Position numbers and translations under genes: made by a program
Shown here: positions 20,418 to 26,826 of the stretch, piece after piece
Numbering within the stretch: position 1 is the first letter of the stretch
Layout: every line of letters starts with the position of its first letter
Origin: Salinispira pacifica
GTDB lineage: Bacteria; Spirochaetota; Spirochaetia; DSM-27196; Salinispiraceae
Assembly (NCBI RefSeq): GCF_000507245.1
Contig: NC_023035.1
Span: 3,639,570 to 3,703,569, forward strand
Length of the DNA stretch: 64,000 bases
Direction of reading: 5' to 3'
The notes under the pieces: model-generated
What the model was told of the DNA's origin: nothing
What the model saw: only the letters and a program-made list of their open reading frames with translations
Databases searched by the model: none

Positions 20418-20454
20418 CCTCCCCCACAGTCGGCTCCCGGGGAGGGTGGAAATA

Positions 20455-20482
20455 TTGACACTTCAGGCCAACTTGCTATAAT
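20455..20482 (+). promoter_or_regulatory. pheST promoter
   Basis: TTGACA (20455-20460), 16 nt, TATAAT (20477-20482): both boxes are perfect consensus. Transcription would begin near 20489, just before the leader-peptide ATG. Confidence 0.88.
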
Positions 20483-20494
20483 ACATAGCTGTCT

Positions 20495-20584
20495 ATGATT
20501 AATCCGAATCTCCGCAACAGCTTTTTTTTCTTTTTCAGCTTTATAACCCGCAGCTGCGAGGGATTCGAAGAGGACCATGGATAA
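20495..20584 (+). CDS. pheST leader peptide (attenuator)
   Basis: A 29-codon open frame, ATG at 20495 and TAA at 20582-20584, encoding seven Phe residues, five of them consecutive (codons at 20522-20536, TTT/TTC). It begins a few bases after the predicted transcription start and lies just upstream of a terminator and pheS. The codon run makes translation sensitive to charged tRNA-Phe, the substrate-product of the enzyme encoded downstream. It is comparable in role to E. coli pheM but not similar in sequence. No strong Shine-Dalgarno is visible. Confidence 0.82.
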   Translation: MINPNLRNSFFFFFSFITRSCEGFEEDHG

Positions 20585-20639
20585 TAGATCTAAGGTACAT
20601 CAGCGGATTCCTCGCTCAGGCGGGGAATCCTTTTTTTTT
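20505..20639 (+). promoter_or_regulatory. pheST transcription attenuator (segments 1-4)
   Basis: Four mutually exclusive segments. Segment 1 (20505-20515) can pair with segment 2 (20556-20567) over 11 bp with one bulged A. Segment 2 can pair with segment 3 (20604-20615) over 12 bp including two G-U pairs, forming the antiterminator. Segment 3 pairs with segment 4 (20620-20630) to form the terminator. The five Phe codons lie between segments 1 and 2, so a ribosome stalled there covers segment 1, frees segment 2, and lets RNA polymerase continue into pheS. This is the classical trp/phe attenuation design, inferred from pairing alone. Confidence 0.85.
20605..20639 (+). terminator. Rho-independent terminator of the pheST leader
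   Basis: An 11-bp stem (20605-20615 with 20620-20630, one G-U pair) with a TCAG loop, followed directly by nine T (20631-20639). Confidence 0.92.
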
Positions 20640-20707
20640 ACCTTCGGAATACACCCGGATTTATCACCGTGCATGAATACGACATGAACACGAGAGAGGA
20701 GCGGTAC

Positions 20708-21751
20708 ATGGTGGAACAACTGCAGCAGATGCTGGAGGACTTTAAAACCGGCATAGAAAAGGTTCAATCCCTGCCTGATATGGCCCAATTCAAGGCCGAA
20801 TATCTTGGTAAAAAAGGCAGACTGAAAGGTCTCATGGCCGGAATGAGGGATCTCTCCCCTGAAGAGCGCAGCAGTTTCGGTGCCAAAGCCAACGAAGCCA
20901 AGCAGTTCATGGAAAAACTCATTCAGGAACAGAGCACCCGGATTGAATTGGAAGAGATCAACTCCCGCCTGGACAAGGAATGGCAGGATATATCCTGGAC
21001 AGACCGGTTGAAGGACAAGGGTCAGCAGGCAGCCGGACTCCATCCGTTAAGCAGCGTGATGCGTGGACTGGAGGATATTTTTCTCTCCATGGGTTTTGAT
21101 ATTCTCGACGGCCCCCATATTGAAGATGAATACCACAACTTTGAAGCATTGAATATTCCCGCCAATCATCCCGCGCGGGATATGCAGGACACGTTCTGGT
21201 TTCAGGATAAAAAACATCTTCTCCGCACCCACACTTCCAACATCCAGATCAGGGGAATGGAACAGCATAAGCCTCCGTTCAAATTCGTGGGACCGGGAAA
21301 AGTATTCCGCTCTGAAGCCCTGGATGCCAGCCACGAAGCCGCATTTCATCAGCTTGAAGGCATGATGGTGGGAAAGGATATCAGTGTTTCCCACATGATC
21401 CACTTCCTTCGTACCCTTTTGTCCGAAATCTTTCAGAAAGAGATCAAAGTCCGGCTCCGTCCGGGTTTTTTCCCTTTTGTTGAGCCTGGATTTGAACTTG
21501 ATTATGAATGCCTGCTCTGCGGCGGAACAGGCTGTTCAGTGTGTAAGCAGGTGGGCTGGGTGGAGGCCCTGGGCTGCGGCATGGTGCACCCCAATGTTCT
21601 GAAAGCAGGGAATATTGATCCCCGGGAATGGAACGGTTTTGCCTTCGGACTCGGTGTGGACCGCCTCACCATGATGCGCTACCACATTGATGATGTACGC
21701 CACATTCACAGCGGAGACCTGCTGTTTTCCCAGCAGTTCAAGGCATACTGA
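20708..21751 (+). CDS. pheS: phenylalanine-tRNA ligase alpha subunit
   Basis: A 347-residue class II synthetase subunit that, with PheT, charges tRNA-Phe. N-terminal coiled coil (about 1-80, tRNA contact), motif 2 in FRSEALDASHEAAFHQLEG, and motif 3 in GFAFGLGVDRLTMMRY. A CLLCGGTGCSVC cluster (Cys 268, 271, 276, 279) replaces the plain loop of E. coli PheS and could bind zinc; similar clusters occur in PheS of other bacteria. I start at the ATG 20708, which has GAGAGGAG upstream; in-frame starts at 20669 and 20684 are possible. Controlled by the upstream attenuator. Confidence 0.96.
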   Translation: MVEQLQQMLEDFKTGIEKVQSLPDMAQFKAEYLGKKGRLKGLMAGMRDLSPEERSSFGAKANEAKQFMEKLIQEQSTRIELEEINSRLDKEWQDISWTDRLKDKGQQAAGLHPLSSVMRGLEDIFLSMGFDILDGPHIEDEYHNFEALNIPANHPARDMQDTFWFQDKKHLLRTHTSNIQIRGMEQHKPPFKFVGPGKVFRSEALDASHEAAFHQLEGMMVGKDISVSHMIHFLRTLLSEIFQKEIKVRLRPGFFPFVEPGFELDYECLLCGGTGCSVCKQVGWVEALGCGMVHPNVLKAGNIDPREWNGFAFGLGVDRLTMMRYHIDDVRHIHSGDLLFSQQFKAY

Positions 21752-21793: not shown

Positions 21794-24223
21794 ATGAAGA
21801 TTAGCTTAGATTGGATACAGGATTTCACAGAATTACCCGGTGAGCTCAGCCCCGAAGAAATCGGGACGCAGTTCACCCTCTCCACCTGCGAAGTGGAAGG
21901 TGTTGAGCGCAGCAACGAACATCTGGAACAGGTGACCGTCGCACAGATCACCGGAATCGAACCCCACCCCGAGGCGGATAAACTGAATTTAGTACGCTTT
22001 AAAACCGGAGACGGGGAGAAGCAGGTGGTGTGCGGTGCGCCGAATGTTGCCGTTGGACAGAAAGTACCCTTCGCACCGGTGGGAACCACCCTGCCAATAG
22101 GCTTCACCCTGGAGCCCAAAAAGATCAGAGGGGTGTTGAGTGAAGGCATGCTCTGCGCCGAGGATGAGCTGGGGCTTGGCGAAGGTCACGAAGGCCTCAT
22201 GATCCTTGACGGCGATGCAGCCCTTGGTCAGACACTGGCTGATTACCTGAAAACTTCAACAGACGTTCTTCTGGATATTGATAACAAATCCATTACCCAC
22301 AGGCCGGATCTCTGGGGGCATTACGGCATGGCCAGGGAATTTGCCGCAGTATTCCGAAAGGAGCTGAAAACCCCTTTTGATGAGTCCTGGATGCAGAAGC
22401 TGCGGAAGCTCCAGACCAAAGATCCCTCCCCGGTAAGCATTCAGGTAGATGAAAAGAGCGCCTGTCTGGGATACATGGGATTGAGCGTTGATAATGTGAC
22501 CGTGAAGCCGAGCCCCCAGTGGATGCAGAACCGCCTGATTGCATGCGGACTCCGTCCCATCAACAATATTGTGGATATCTCAAACTACGTTATGCTCGAG
22601 CTGGGCCAGCCTAATCATATTTTTGACCGGGAGACCATCAGGGGCGGTACAATTATCGTTCGGGAAATGGGGGAACACCATACCTTCACAACTCTCGATG
22701 AAGTTGAGCGGCACATAATCCCCGGCGACACCATGGTATGCGATGCCCAGGGACCGTCGGTTATCGGCGGCATCATGGGGGGCCTAAGCTCATCTGTGAA
22801 AGAACAGACATCCAGCATTTTCATAGAAGCGGCAAACTGGGTGGATGCCAGGATCCGCCACACCTCCACCCGTTTGGGCCTTCGCACCGATTCCAGCCAG
22901 CGCTTTGAAAAATCTCTTGACACCAATCAGCTGGAACGGACCATCTGGCGGATTCTGGAACTTGTTCTTGAAAGCTGCCCCGAAGCGAAGGTTGCAGGAT
23001 CACTGGAATCCGACGGAATGAAGTACACTCCGGAATTAACCATCGACCTCAGTGAGGAACGAGTCAATTCCATTCTGGGCACAAATCTGGATGCAGCTGC
23101 CATCAAAAAATATCTTGAAAGTCTGGAATTTCAGGTCGAAATGAAATCCGAACGCCCGGGAAGCATGAAGGTCACCGTTCCCAGCTTCCGCGCAACCAAG
23201 GATATAGAAGTGGACGCCGACCTGATCGAAGAGGTGGGCAGAATTCACGGGTACGATAAACTGATCCCCATAGCTCCGAAAAATGAAATTACCGCAGTAA
23301 AACTTCTGCCGGAAAAACTGCTCAAGCGGAAAATCATGGACTTCATGGTATACCGGGGAAGAGCTCTGGAAATTTACAGCTATCCCATGGTCGGAGAAAA
23401 GCTGCTTGCACAGGCGGACTGGCATGAACTGAATGAAAAGCTGATTCTTGCCAACGCATTGAACCCGGAAACGGACCGGATGCGTCCCTCCCTCGTTCCT
23501 TCCCTGCTGGAGAAGGCCGCCCTTAACCAGAAGCATTTCAGCAGCAGCCGTTTCTTTGAACTGGGAAGGAGTTACCTTGAGGATGAAGCTGCATTCAGCC
23601 GGGAACGGCATCAGCTGGGGATTGTATTTTACTCAAAAACCCACTCCCCTTTCATGGAATTGCTGAATCTCCTGGAGGATATGTTCGAAAACCTTAATCT
23701 CAACACCAGGATCGGAATGCCGGATAAAAGCAAGCCCAACCCCTTACTGCCGGAGAACTGGCTGGGAAAACACCCCAATGAATACCTGGATATACGCATT
23801 ATGGGGAAGACAGCAGGTTTCATTTCCAGCATTCACCCGCTGATGAACCGGGCATTTAAGATCAAAGGCAACCTGGTAATGGCTCTTGTGGATCTTACCG
23901 ATTTCATGGTCCATCCTATCCAGGATAAAACCAAATACCAGCCCCTGCCGAAATTCCCCGGCTCGACTTTTGACTGTACGGTGCTGGCTGATCCCAAAAC
24001 TCCCGTGGCCGACATAATTGCCGCCGCCCGGAAACTGAAAATGAAAGAACTTGTGGATCTGCGCATCGCCGATGTTTACACCCCCGATGATCAACCGAAG
24101 GCTGTGACCCTCCGGGCCCGTTTCCTGGACAGGGATCAGACACTCAGCCCCGAGTTCATCAGTACCGCAGAAAGCCGGCTCATTGAAACGCTGGAAAAGC
24201 AGGGATACCCTCTGAAACAGTAG
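21794..24223 (+). CDS. pheT: phenylalanine-tRNA ligase beta subunit
   Basis: An 809-residue subunit of the alpha2-beta2 enzyme. Domains in order: EMAP/OB tRNA-binding domain (about 40-150, with IEPHPEADKLNLVRF), B3/B4 editing domain (about 210-390), B5 (about 405-475, HGYDKLIP after it), the catalytic-like core (about 480-690) and the FDX-ACB anticodon-binding domain (about 710-809, FPGSTFDCTVLADP). GGGAGA precedes the ATG. It lies 42 bp after pheS and probably shares its mRNA. Confidence 0.96.
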   Translation: MKISLDWIQDFTELPGELSPEEIGTQFTLSTCEVEGVERSNEHLEQVTVAQITGIEPHPEADKLNLVRFKTGDGEKQVVCGAPNVAVGQKVPFAPVGTTLPIGFTLEPKKIRGVLSEGMLCAEDELGLGEGHEGLMILDGDAALGQTLADYLKTSTDVLLDIDNKSITHRPDLWGHYGMAREFAAVFRKELKTPFDESWMQKLRKLQTKDPSPVSIQVDEKSACLGYMGLSVDNVTVKPSPQWMQNRLIACGLRPINNIVDISNYVMLELGQPNHIFDRETIRGGTIIVREMGEHHTFTTLDEVERHIIPGDTMVCDAQGPSVIGGIMGGLSSSVKEQTSSIFIEAANWVDARIRHTSTRLGLRTDSSQRFEKSLDTNQLERTIWRILELVLESCPEAKVAGSLESDGMKYTPELTIDLSEERVNSILGTNLDAAAIKKYLESLEFQVEMKSERPGSMKVTVPSFRATKDIEVDADLIEEVGRIHGYDKLIPIAPKNEITAVKLLPEKLLKRKIMDFMVYRGRALEIYSYPMVGEKLLAQADWHELNEKLILANALNPETDRMRPSLVPSLLEKAALNQKHFSSSRFFELGRSYLEDEAAFSRERHQLGIVFYSKTHSPFMELLNLLEDMFENLNLNTRIGMPDKSKPNPLLPENWLGKHPNEYLDIRIMGKTAGFISSIHPLMNRAFKIKGNLVMALVDLTDFMVHPIQDKTKYQPLPKFPGSTFDCTVLADPKTPVADIIAAARKLKMKELVDLRIADVYTPDDQPKAVTLRARFLDRDQTLSPEFISTAESRLIETLEKQGYPLKQ

Positions 24224-24828: not shown

Positions 24829-26826
24829 ATGCAGAACCGGATGCAAATACTTAAGAACATCAAAACCCTTATTCCCCAGATTTCCCTGTGGCTGAAAGAA
24901 CAGCTGGGGATTATTTCCCAGGCATGTATGGTGTGGGTGCTGATGAGCACGATCTATGCCGCCGCTCTGATTTTTATTTCCGCCGATCCCGTTACCTCAA
25001 TACTGTCTCTCATTATGGCAGCGGTTCATGTCGGTATCGCAGTGTATACCGCACGGAAAGCAGGGGGAAAATATAAACTTTCTCCCAGGGAATTTCTGGT
25101 ACTGAAGAAGGGCCTCTCATATGTCGCATCCACACAGTTTATCGTACATTCCATCACTCTTCTGGCCGCCTGGAGTTCAGAGGGTATCGGCCTCAACACC
25201 TACTATATTCTGTATGCACTGAATATCCTGCTGGTTGGAATATATCTGCCGGTATTCTTCTCCATACGACGGAAACGCAACCTTCTCCGGAAGGGAATTA
25301 TCCGGGAAGTTAAGCGCAGGAATAAAACGAAGTATGAGGCTATCCGGCATTTCAGAGGCATCGGGGTCAGCATCGGCGAGTGGATTGATGCCATTATCTG
25401 GGCGGTTATTGCGGTTATTTTTATCAACTCCCTCTTTTTCCAACTCTACCAGATCCCTTCCGAGTCCATGGTACCCGAATACTACGTGGGCTCCAGGGTA
25501 CTCACCGGAAAGCTGGGGTACAATCCGGAAATACCTCTTTCGCTGGTCCGCATCCCCATTCTCCGGGAGCCCGAACGTTTCGACGAGTATGTGCTGAACA
25601 ATCCTCGATACACCATAGGCAAGAGTCAGGCTCTGAAGGACTTCCGTAACACCTTTATCCAGATGATCACGTTCTCCATGGTTCAGATGCCGAAAACTGA
25701 TATTAACGGCGTACCCTTTCATGATCCCCTCATTAAGCGGCTGACCGCTCTGCCCGGGGAGCAGATAATGATGGCAGATGATGTTGTGTATATCCGAAAC
25801 AATACCGATGAGGATTTCCGGGAGTTGAGAGGCGACCGGGAGTACGCCTGGAATTTCAGCAACGATCTCCAGGTGAACCGTGAACGTCTTGAGCAGGAGT
25901 CTGTTTCCCCGGATATGCGTGAGCGGATCAAAGCCTGGGACCGGGAAAAAGCCGGTGTCGCCGCCGACTACCCCAGCCAGGCGCGGCTCCTGGCAGATAG
26001 AGTAATCCGCGCAGTGGACCGTGCAGCAATGGTGGCAACGGTACCCGCGGAAGGAGCCGTTCCCGACTTTCAACCGAGCATTTTTCAGGCCTCCTCCAGG
26101 AGCTTCCAGCCCATAGATGAAACGGTGCTCTCCGAATATTTCGGGTATGCTCTTCGTGATCCGGAAGCGTTCCGCACAGAGATGGAATCCTTCCTGTTCA
26201 CCGCATATCCGGAAGAGGAATCCCTGCTTGAGAGCATTGATCAAAATAGTTTCGATGGTTCTGCGGCAGCGGCGAATTTGCTTTTCAAACTGAAGTTTCT
26301 TACCGCCTTTGAAGCCTACGTTAACAGTATCGGCGGCGGTCCGGGCGAAGGGTTTGAACCGGCCATTATCGAGCTCTATGAGTACACTGCACTGTACATT
26401 CATTCCTATTTCGATCCCCGGAATTTTCCGCCTTTTCCCCGGGGAGGGGTTCTGCCTGAGGATCAGTACTTTTTTCTCGGGGACAACCGGTACAATTCAT
26501 TTGATTCCCGGCATTGGAAATCGGGGCGCAGAATTTCGGCACTGGATGCTTCCGACCCATACAGTCTGAAATACGGGTCCATGGTTCAGCCTTTCAGCAT
26601 GGGAAGTAAATATATCCGGGGAAGGCTTTACTGGGAGTATTCTGAAATACTGAAATGCCCCGTCCACACCCGGGATTCAGCCTCCCAGCTGTTCCCTCAT
26701 AAATTTCAGGGCCCGGGTCTCCTGCTGATACCACAGCTCGTCACTCATTCCCAGAAAGGCATGAGTTCCATCTTCATAGATCTCCAGTTCAGAATGAGCT
26801 CCAACCGCTCTGACCGCATCATGTAG
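24829..26826 (+). CDS. lepB: signal peptidase I, enlarged
   Basis: A 665-residue membrane serine peptidase that removes signal peptides. About four N-terminal hydrophobic segments (about 30-145) precede the anchoring helix (184-206), the catalytic Ser in IPSESMVPEYY (Ser213), the catalytic Lys in IKRLTALPGEQ (Lys303) and the C-terminal GDNRYNSFDSRHWKSG box. About 200 residues between the Lys box and the last box, and the N-terminal membrane region, are extra compared with E. coli LepB. The last 50 codons run antisense across the end of the esterase gene, which is odd; adding one C at 26658-26661 would end the protein at 26702. Start uncertain between 24829 and 24841. Confidence 0.9.
   Translation: MQNRMQILKNIKTLIPQISLWLKEQLGIISQACMVWVLMSTIYAAALIFISADPVTSILSLIMAAVHVGIAVYTARKAGGKYKLSPREFLVLKKGLSYVASTQFIVHSITLLAAWSSEGIGLNTYYILYALNILLVGIYLPVFFSIRRKRNLLRKGIIREVKRRNKTKYEAIRHFRGIGVSIGEWIDAIIWAVIAVIFINSLFFQLYQIPSESMVPEYYVGSRVLTGKLGYNPEIPLSLVRIPILREPERFDEYVLNNPRYTIGKSQALKDFRNTFIQMITFSMVQMPKTDINGVPFHDPLIKRLTALPGEQIMMADDVVYIRNNTDEDFRELRGDREYAWNFSNDLQVNRERLEQESVSPDMRERIKAWDREKAGVAADYPSQARLLADRVIRAVDRAAMVATVPAEGAVPDFQPSIFQASSRSFQPIDETVLSEYFGYALRDPEAFRTEMESFLFTAYPEEESLLESIDQNSFDGSAAAANLLFKLKFLTAFEAYVNSIGGGPGEGFEPAIIELYEYTALYIHSYFDPRNFPPFPRGGVLPEDQYFFLGDNRYNSFDSRHWKSGRRISALDASDPYSLKYGSMVQPFSMGSKYIRGRLYWEYSEILKCPVHTRDSASQLFPHKFQGPGLLLIPQLVTHSQKGMSSIFIDLQFRMSSNRSDRIM

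Follow-up and report, generated by a model that had tools for sequence, protein, structure and literature searches.

In Escherichia coli, pheST is controlled by an attenuator composed of the Phe-rich leader peptide encoded by pheM, alternative hairpins and an intrinsic terminator located before pheS-pheT. In gamma-proteobacteria, it is the cited example of a synthetase operon under classical attenuation, and attenuation of the same kind has been predicted by comparison for the Streptomyces synthetase genes trpS and leuS, that is, outside the proteobacteria (PMC1262725). The ilvBNC operon of Corynebacterium glutamicum has a leader-peptide attenuator whose mRNA is leaderless: the transcription start and the start codon of the leader are one nucleotide apart (PMC11857589). 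Here we analyzed a stretch of 64,000 nucleotides of the Salinispira pacifica chromosome (the window). A sequence-only reading had taken its source for a spirochaete-like organism, which is indeed a spirochaete by its relatives, and had proposed attenuation of pheST. As judged from sequence comparison, the region preceding pheST very probably constitutes a ribosome-mediated transcription attenuator that senses charged tRNA-Phe.

The features of the locus are listed in Table 1. The consensus promoter and the 29-codon leader with five consecutive Phe codons that had been claimed before were both recovered. The -35 and -10 hexamers (20455-20460 and 20477-20482) are separated by a 16-nt spacer, and the Phe codons are leader codons 10-14 and 16 (20522-20536 and 20540-20542). 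The three alternative pairings claimed earlier are also present, with one correction. Pairing 1:2 (20505-20516 with 20555-20567) comprises 12 bp with one bulge instead of 11 bp; pairing 2:3 (20556-20567 with 20604-20615) has the 12 bp given before, including two G-U pairs, and pairing 3:4 (20605-20615 with 20620-20630) has the 11 bp given before, with a 4-nt loop and followed by nine T (20631-20639). The leader folds 2.7 standard deviations below shuffled sequences in energy, and the 2:3 duplex of the window leader is significant when compared with dinucleotide shuffles of the arm 2 region (P = 0.007). Under an assumed ribosome footprint the geometry fits, the first Phe codon being located at 20522, the end of arm 1 at 20516 and the start of arm 2 at 20555. 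Two neighboring features were observed besides. Between the pheST promoter and the gene upstream, which encodes a sugar ABC-transporter permease, lies an inverted repeat (CCTCCCC/GGGGAGG, 20418-20446) that lacks a U tract, and an unusually long ORF of 665 amino acids at 24829-26826 resembles, from its sequence, a signal peptidase with an inserted region.

Table 1. Predicted features of the pheST leader region and its downstream genes (positions in the window)
Feature	Position	Strand	Details
Promoter, sigma-70-type, TTGACA-N16-TATAAT, TG before the -10	20455-20482	+	12/12 consensus matches
Transcription start, predicted	20489	+	about 7 nt past the -10 box; 5′ UTR of about 6 nt
Leader peptide ORF, MINPNLRNSFFFFFSFITRSCEGFEEDHG, 29 codons	20495-20584	+	ATG at 20495, stop at 20582-20584
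Arm 1, CGAATCTCCGCA	20505-20516	+	RNA folds/duplexes
Arm 2, TGCGAGGGATTCG, partner of arm 1 or of arm 3 (antiterminator)	20555-20567	+	
Arm 3, CGGATTCCTCGC, partner of arm 2 or of arm 4	20604-20615	+	
Arm 4, GCGGGGAATCC, plus nine T; with arm 3, predicted intrinsic terminator	20620-20639	+	
pheS, bacterial-type phenylalanine-tRNA ligase alpha subunit	20708-21751	+	NCBIfam TIGR00468, 289 bits, above cut-off
pheT, bacterial-type phenylalanine-tRNA ligase beta subunit	21794-24223	+	NCBIfam TIGR00472, 639 bits, above cut-off

This arrangement suggests the following mechanism. RNA polymerase would start about 6 nt before the leader AUG, and a ribosome would load at the 5′ end of the RNA, without a Shine-Dalgarno sequence, and trail the polymerase. 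When Phe-tRNA is plentiful, the ribosome would clear the FFFFF(S)F codons and depart; pairings 1:2 and 3:4 would then form and transcription would stop at the U tract before pheS. When charged tRNA-Phe is short, the ribosome would wait at the first Phe codon and cover arm 1, leaving arm 2 free to pair with the emerging arm 3, so that no terminator forms, pheST is transcribed and charging would be restored.

Since Phe codons are T-rich, the locus could also be explained by a constitutive partial terminator next to a fortuitous T-rich ORF; the hairpin would then only set the level of pheST, and the Phe run would be a poly-U tract with another role. Five successive Phe codons (TTY) occur at 9 sites on both strands of the 3.78-Mb genome, and a reversed-pattern control is equally frequent; from this density, the chance of such a run within the approximately 300 bases before pheS is estimated at about 4 in 10,000. 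The other sites that were read (L114, L116 and L119, forward strand of the loci) are not leaders, and the idea of another Phe leader in this genome was rejected accordingly. A short sense ORF rich in Phe (at least five Phe in 10 residues) is present upstream of pheS in 19 of the 29 Spirochaetia loci with a bacterial-type pheS, and in none of the 29 on the antisense strand. In 23 leaders, which together use 129 TTT and 52 TTC codons, the longest Phe runs total 103 in the frame of the ORF and 38 and 41 in the other two frames. Moreover, the start of the ORF containing the runs is fixed relative to a promoter: one matching the consensus at 10 to 12 of 12 positions precedes the leader ATG in 22 spirochaete leaders. 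A chance T-rich tract is thus ruled out by frame specificity, the antisense control and conservation, and the constitutive terminator leaves both the frame-specific, sense-strand runs and their fixed position behind a promoter unexplained. What precedes pheST is a short ORF with a conserved, frame-specific run of codons cognate to the operon downstream.

The sequence-only reading had proposed to look for conserved stems and Phe codons in close relatives, and both are conserved there. The seven relatives with the closest PheS, and about ten that are more distant, retain a Phe-rich leader, mutually exclusive arms and a terminator; examples of the leader peptides are MENRSRFFSFFFFFSNSADEGQRFSLK (L005), MKGTFFFSGFFFFFFGFFTREKPGMS (L010), MMGMHGIIFSFFFFFFSTQEGPGLP (L083) and MRKPEFYFFNFFFFFFIGGETPGLV (L020). 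In folds that blocked the RNA as far as the front edge of a ribosome placed on the Phe codons, and in which arm 4 was not yet made, arm 2 paired with arm 3 in most leaders. In folds without a ribosome arm 2, which is common to pairings 1:2 and 2:3, paired with arm 1. Folds and duplexes of the window and its relatives thus contain the mutually exclusive pairings 1:2, 2:3 and 3:4, the last one being an intrinsic terminator. When the arm 2 region was shuffled for comparison, the 2:3 duplex was significant in the window and in L002, L003, L008, L010, L083, L014, L020, L030 and L124. It was marginal in L019 and did not significantly exceed the shuffles in L004, L005, L006, L007, L013, L016 and L017. 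L009 and L012 were judged by eye because the script had picked the antiterminator as the terminator; in these, arm 2 (GAGGGAGTC), which adjoins the leader stop codon, lies opposite arm 3 (GACTCCC or GGCTCCC), and arm 3 lies opposite arm 4 (GGGGAGT or GGGAGC).

The best structural evidence across the relatives is that changes in arm 3 (A/G, C/U and U/C) are matched on both of its putative partners, arm 2 and arm 4. Thus, at one position the change of A to G in arm 3 goes together with U to C in arm 2 in 13 out of 13 cases, C to U in arm 3 is accompanied by G to A, and U to C by A to G. In an RNAalifold analysis of the ten closest leaders the terminator was the only supported helix, with one doubly compensated pair. 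Although this would suit a constitutive terminator, it is also the result expected when one sequence has alternative partners, and covariation of arms 2, 3 and 4 argues against a hairpin that merely sets the pheST level. That explanation would, in addition, need the same coincidence for the Trp, Leu and Ile leaders located before cognate genes in this genome (see below), and we consider it very unlikely. When all four arms are included, the fold with the stalled ribosome continues to favor the terminator in most relatives, so switching by the proposed attenuator would have to be kinetic, as in classic attenuators.

Not every bacterial-type pheS of spirochaetes is preceded by a leader. At three loci (L061, L072 and L079) predicted leaderless short ORFs with three or four scattered Phe codons, followed by a terminator, were observed upstream of pheS, which may be degenerate or weaker versions of the leader. 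Sequestration of the start codon by the 1:2 helix is strong in some relatives, absent in others and about 0.4-0.8 here; it is not claimed as a general feature.

Leader genes have widely been proposed to act by reinitiation (PMC4833913), and the leader ORF might accordingly affect pheS through translational coupling or through reinitiation instead of termination of transcription. Against this, 123 nt and a strong terminator separate the leader stop codon from the pheS ATG (20708), and pheS is preceded by a Shine-Dalgarno sequence of its own (AGGAG), which makes this explanation extremely improbable. Control by a T-box, which governs most aminoacyl-tRNA synthetase genes in Firmicutes (PMC1262725), or by another tRNA- or protein-binding RNA element has a near-negligible probability: no Rfam family, T-box included, was matched at gathering score in the window and ten related loci, the best permissive match of the leader was PyrR (E = 0.14, 25 bits versus a threshold of 54), and such an element would leave the cognate codon run unexplained. 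Taken together, the comparison supports the earlier claim that pheST is controlled by attenuation.

The attenuator logic proposed before is well supported by the comparison, and the label "textbook" is not quite appropriate since a leaderless mRNA is predicted for the leader. The 22 spirochaete leaders all have their ATG 6 to 12 nt behind the -10 hexamer (median 10; 12 in the window) and lack a Shine-Dalgarno sequence. Assuming a start about 7 nt past the hexamer, the 5′ UTR would be 0 to 6 nt long, and this spacing is the reason for predicting a leaderless mRNA. Matches to a promoter with a nearby ATG number 14 in the genome versus 6 in a reversed control, and 10 of the 14 open long genes (coaD-like and LacI-like ORFs among them). 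Strong promoters located 7-12 nt ahead of long-gene starts were observed at loci L149-L160 of the same genome. Many leaderless mRNAs are likely to exist in this spirochaete; about 440 have been mapped in Leptospira (PMC5243855). Whether leaderless initiation couples ribosome and polymerase here thus becomes a testable question.

Candidate leaders for other amino acids were found in the same genome. The leader preceding trpE (G000:C1:219156, + strand), MNNYAASQNLIFSSWWWLG with the run WWW (L166:658-717), has the same build, with a terminator before the gene. The leader upstream of leuA, encoding 2-isopropylmalate synthase (G000:C1:2568624, + strand), is MNRITGTADIPTLLLLGLNSYCCSACVCIQNR with the run LLLL (L165:1192-1290), and the one upstream of the citramalate synthase gene (G000:C1:1513683-1515254) is MRMNIIASISIINLIIAIIGNGEK, with nine Ile codons (L164, minus strand); each is followed by a terminator. 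NCBIfam models identified the three genes with scores above cut-off, and the leaders of these genes are candidates for leaderless Trp, Leu and Ile attenuators. An Ile-rich ORF is found upstream of citramalate synthase at 21 of 29 loci from this genome and relatives (antisense, 4 of 29), with no comparable excess for the other residues tested. The Ile-rich leaders before citramalate synthase in many relatives (L178-L206) are diverged. A scan of pheA, hisG, ilvB and three aspartokinase genes of this genome gave no leaderless leader; it also missed the trpE leader, which was found by reading, so that absences from the scan are weak evidence. The leaderless design of the pheST leader appears to serve Trp, Leu and Ile genes in this organism as well. 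One genome would thus carry a set of cognate leaders, all apparently leaderless, and it is the leaderless start together with this multi-amino-acid set that makes the system of interest.

The distribution of PheS bears on the origin of the operon. The PheS of most genomes in this family and order is of the archaeal type and shares about 30% identity with the query along part of its length; the genome studied here has a single PheS match, of the bacterial type, which within the class Spirochaetia is found in scattered genomes only. According to an earlier description, Spirochaetaceae have an archaeal PheRS in common as a derived character, and the bacterial form was kept in Leptospira and Brachyspira (PMC3191353). 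No convincing leader was found before archaeal-type pheS at 26 loci of relatives, one of which lacks upstream sequence. Because relatives of the same order have archaeal-type PheRS without a leader and this genome has the bacterial type only, the operon was probably acquired or retained together with its attenuator. In the simplest interpretation, the archaeal form was probably replaced in this lineage by a bacterial-type pheST that had an attenuator of its own; alternatively, bacterial-type pheST may have been retained here and lost differentially elsewhere. In the PheS tree the leader-bearing spirochaete sequences fall in several clades. The window sequence clusters with L002-L008 (100/100); its grouping with L010, L013 and L083 is less certain. 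L009 and L012, which are MAG contigs and possibly mis-binned, are located with the Desulfobulbales L011 and L014. L014 has a Phe-rich leader. Upstream of pheS in L011 (Desulfogranum marinum) we observed a Phe-rich frame ending in YRDG and a terminator about 170 nt before the gene, with no ATG, GTG or TTG near the promoter-like site. Since a related PheS comes with a similar leader in Desulfobulbales, the element may be an old one in this branch of PheS. For the same reason the independent origin suggested by the sequence-only reading is no more than a possibility; the dissimilarity to pheM on which it was based is in agreement with the absence of any Phe leader family match in Rfam, at gathering score and among permissive matches. 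It can now be tested whether a synthetase operon that moves horizontally takes its regulatory leader along. For the broader proposal, a Spirochaetia-wide regulon of leaderless Phe, Trp, Leu and Ile attenuators in which ribosome entry at the 5′ end times the switch, and in which an attenuator-bearing pheST displaced archaeal-type PheRS, we judge the case evenly balanced.

In searches of an open-access library we found no report of attenuation in spirochaetes, be it of pheST or leaderless. Attenuation of pheST in gamma-proteobacteria and a leaderless attenuator in Corynebacterium were already known. The proposed attenuator shares with E. coli pheST/pheM a Phe-rich leader peptide, alternative hairpins and an intrinsic terminator before pheS-pheT, but differs from it in the peptide and the RNA, in having its own promoter directly at the leader, in an mRNA predicted to be leaderless and in its lineage, Spirochaetia. 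With C. glutamicum ilvBNC it would share a leaderless leader-peptide attenuator; this likeness is one of design, and ilvBNC belongs to an actinobacterium and serves branched-chain amino-acid biosynthesis, not a synthetase operon. Streptomyces trpS and leuS likewise represent predicted classical attenuation of aminoacyl-tRNA synthetase genes outside the proteobacteria, although for other amino acids and in another phylum, and the pheST leader described here would extend classical attenuation of synthetase operons to the spirochaetes.
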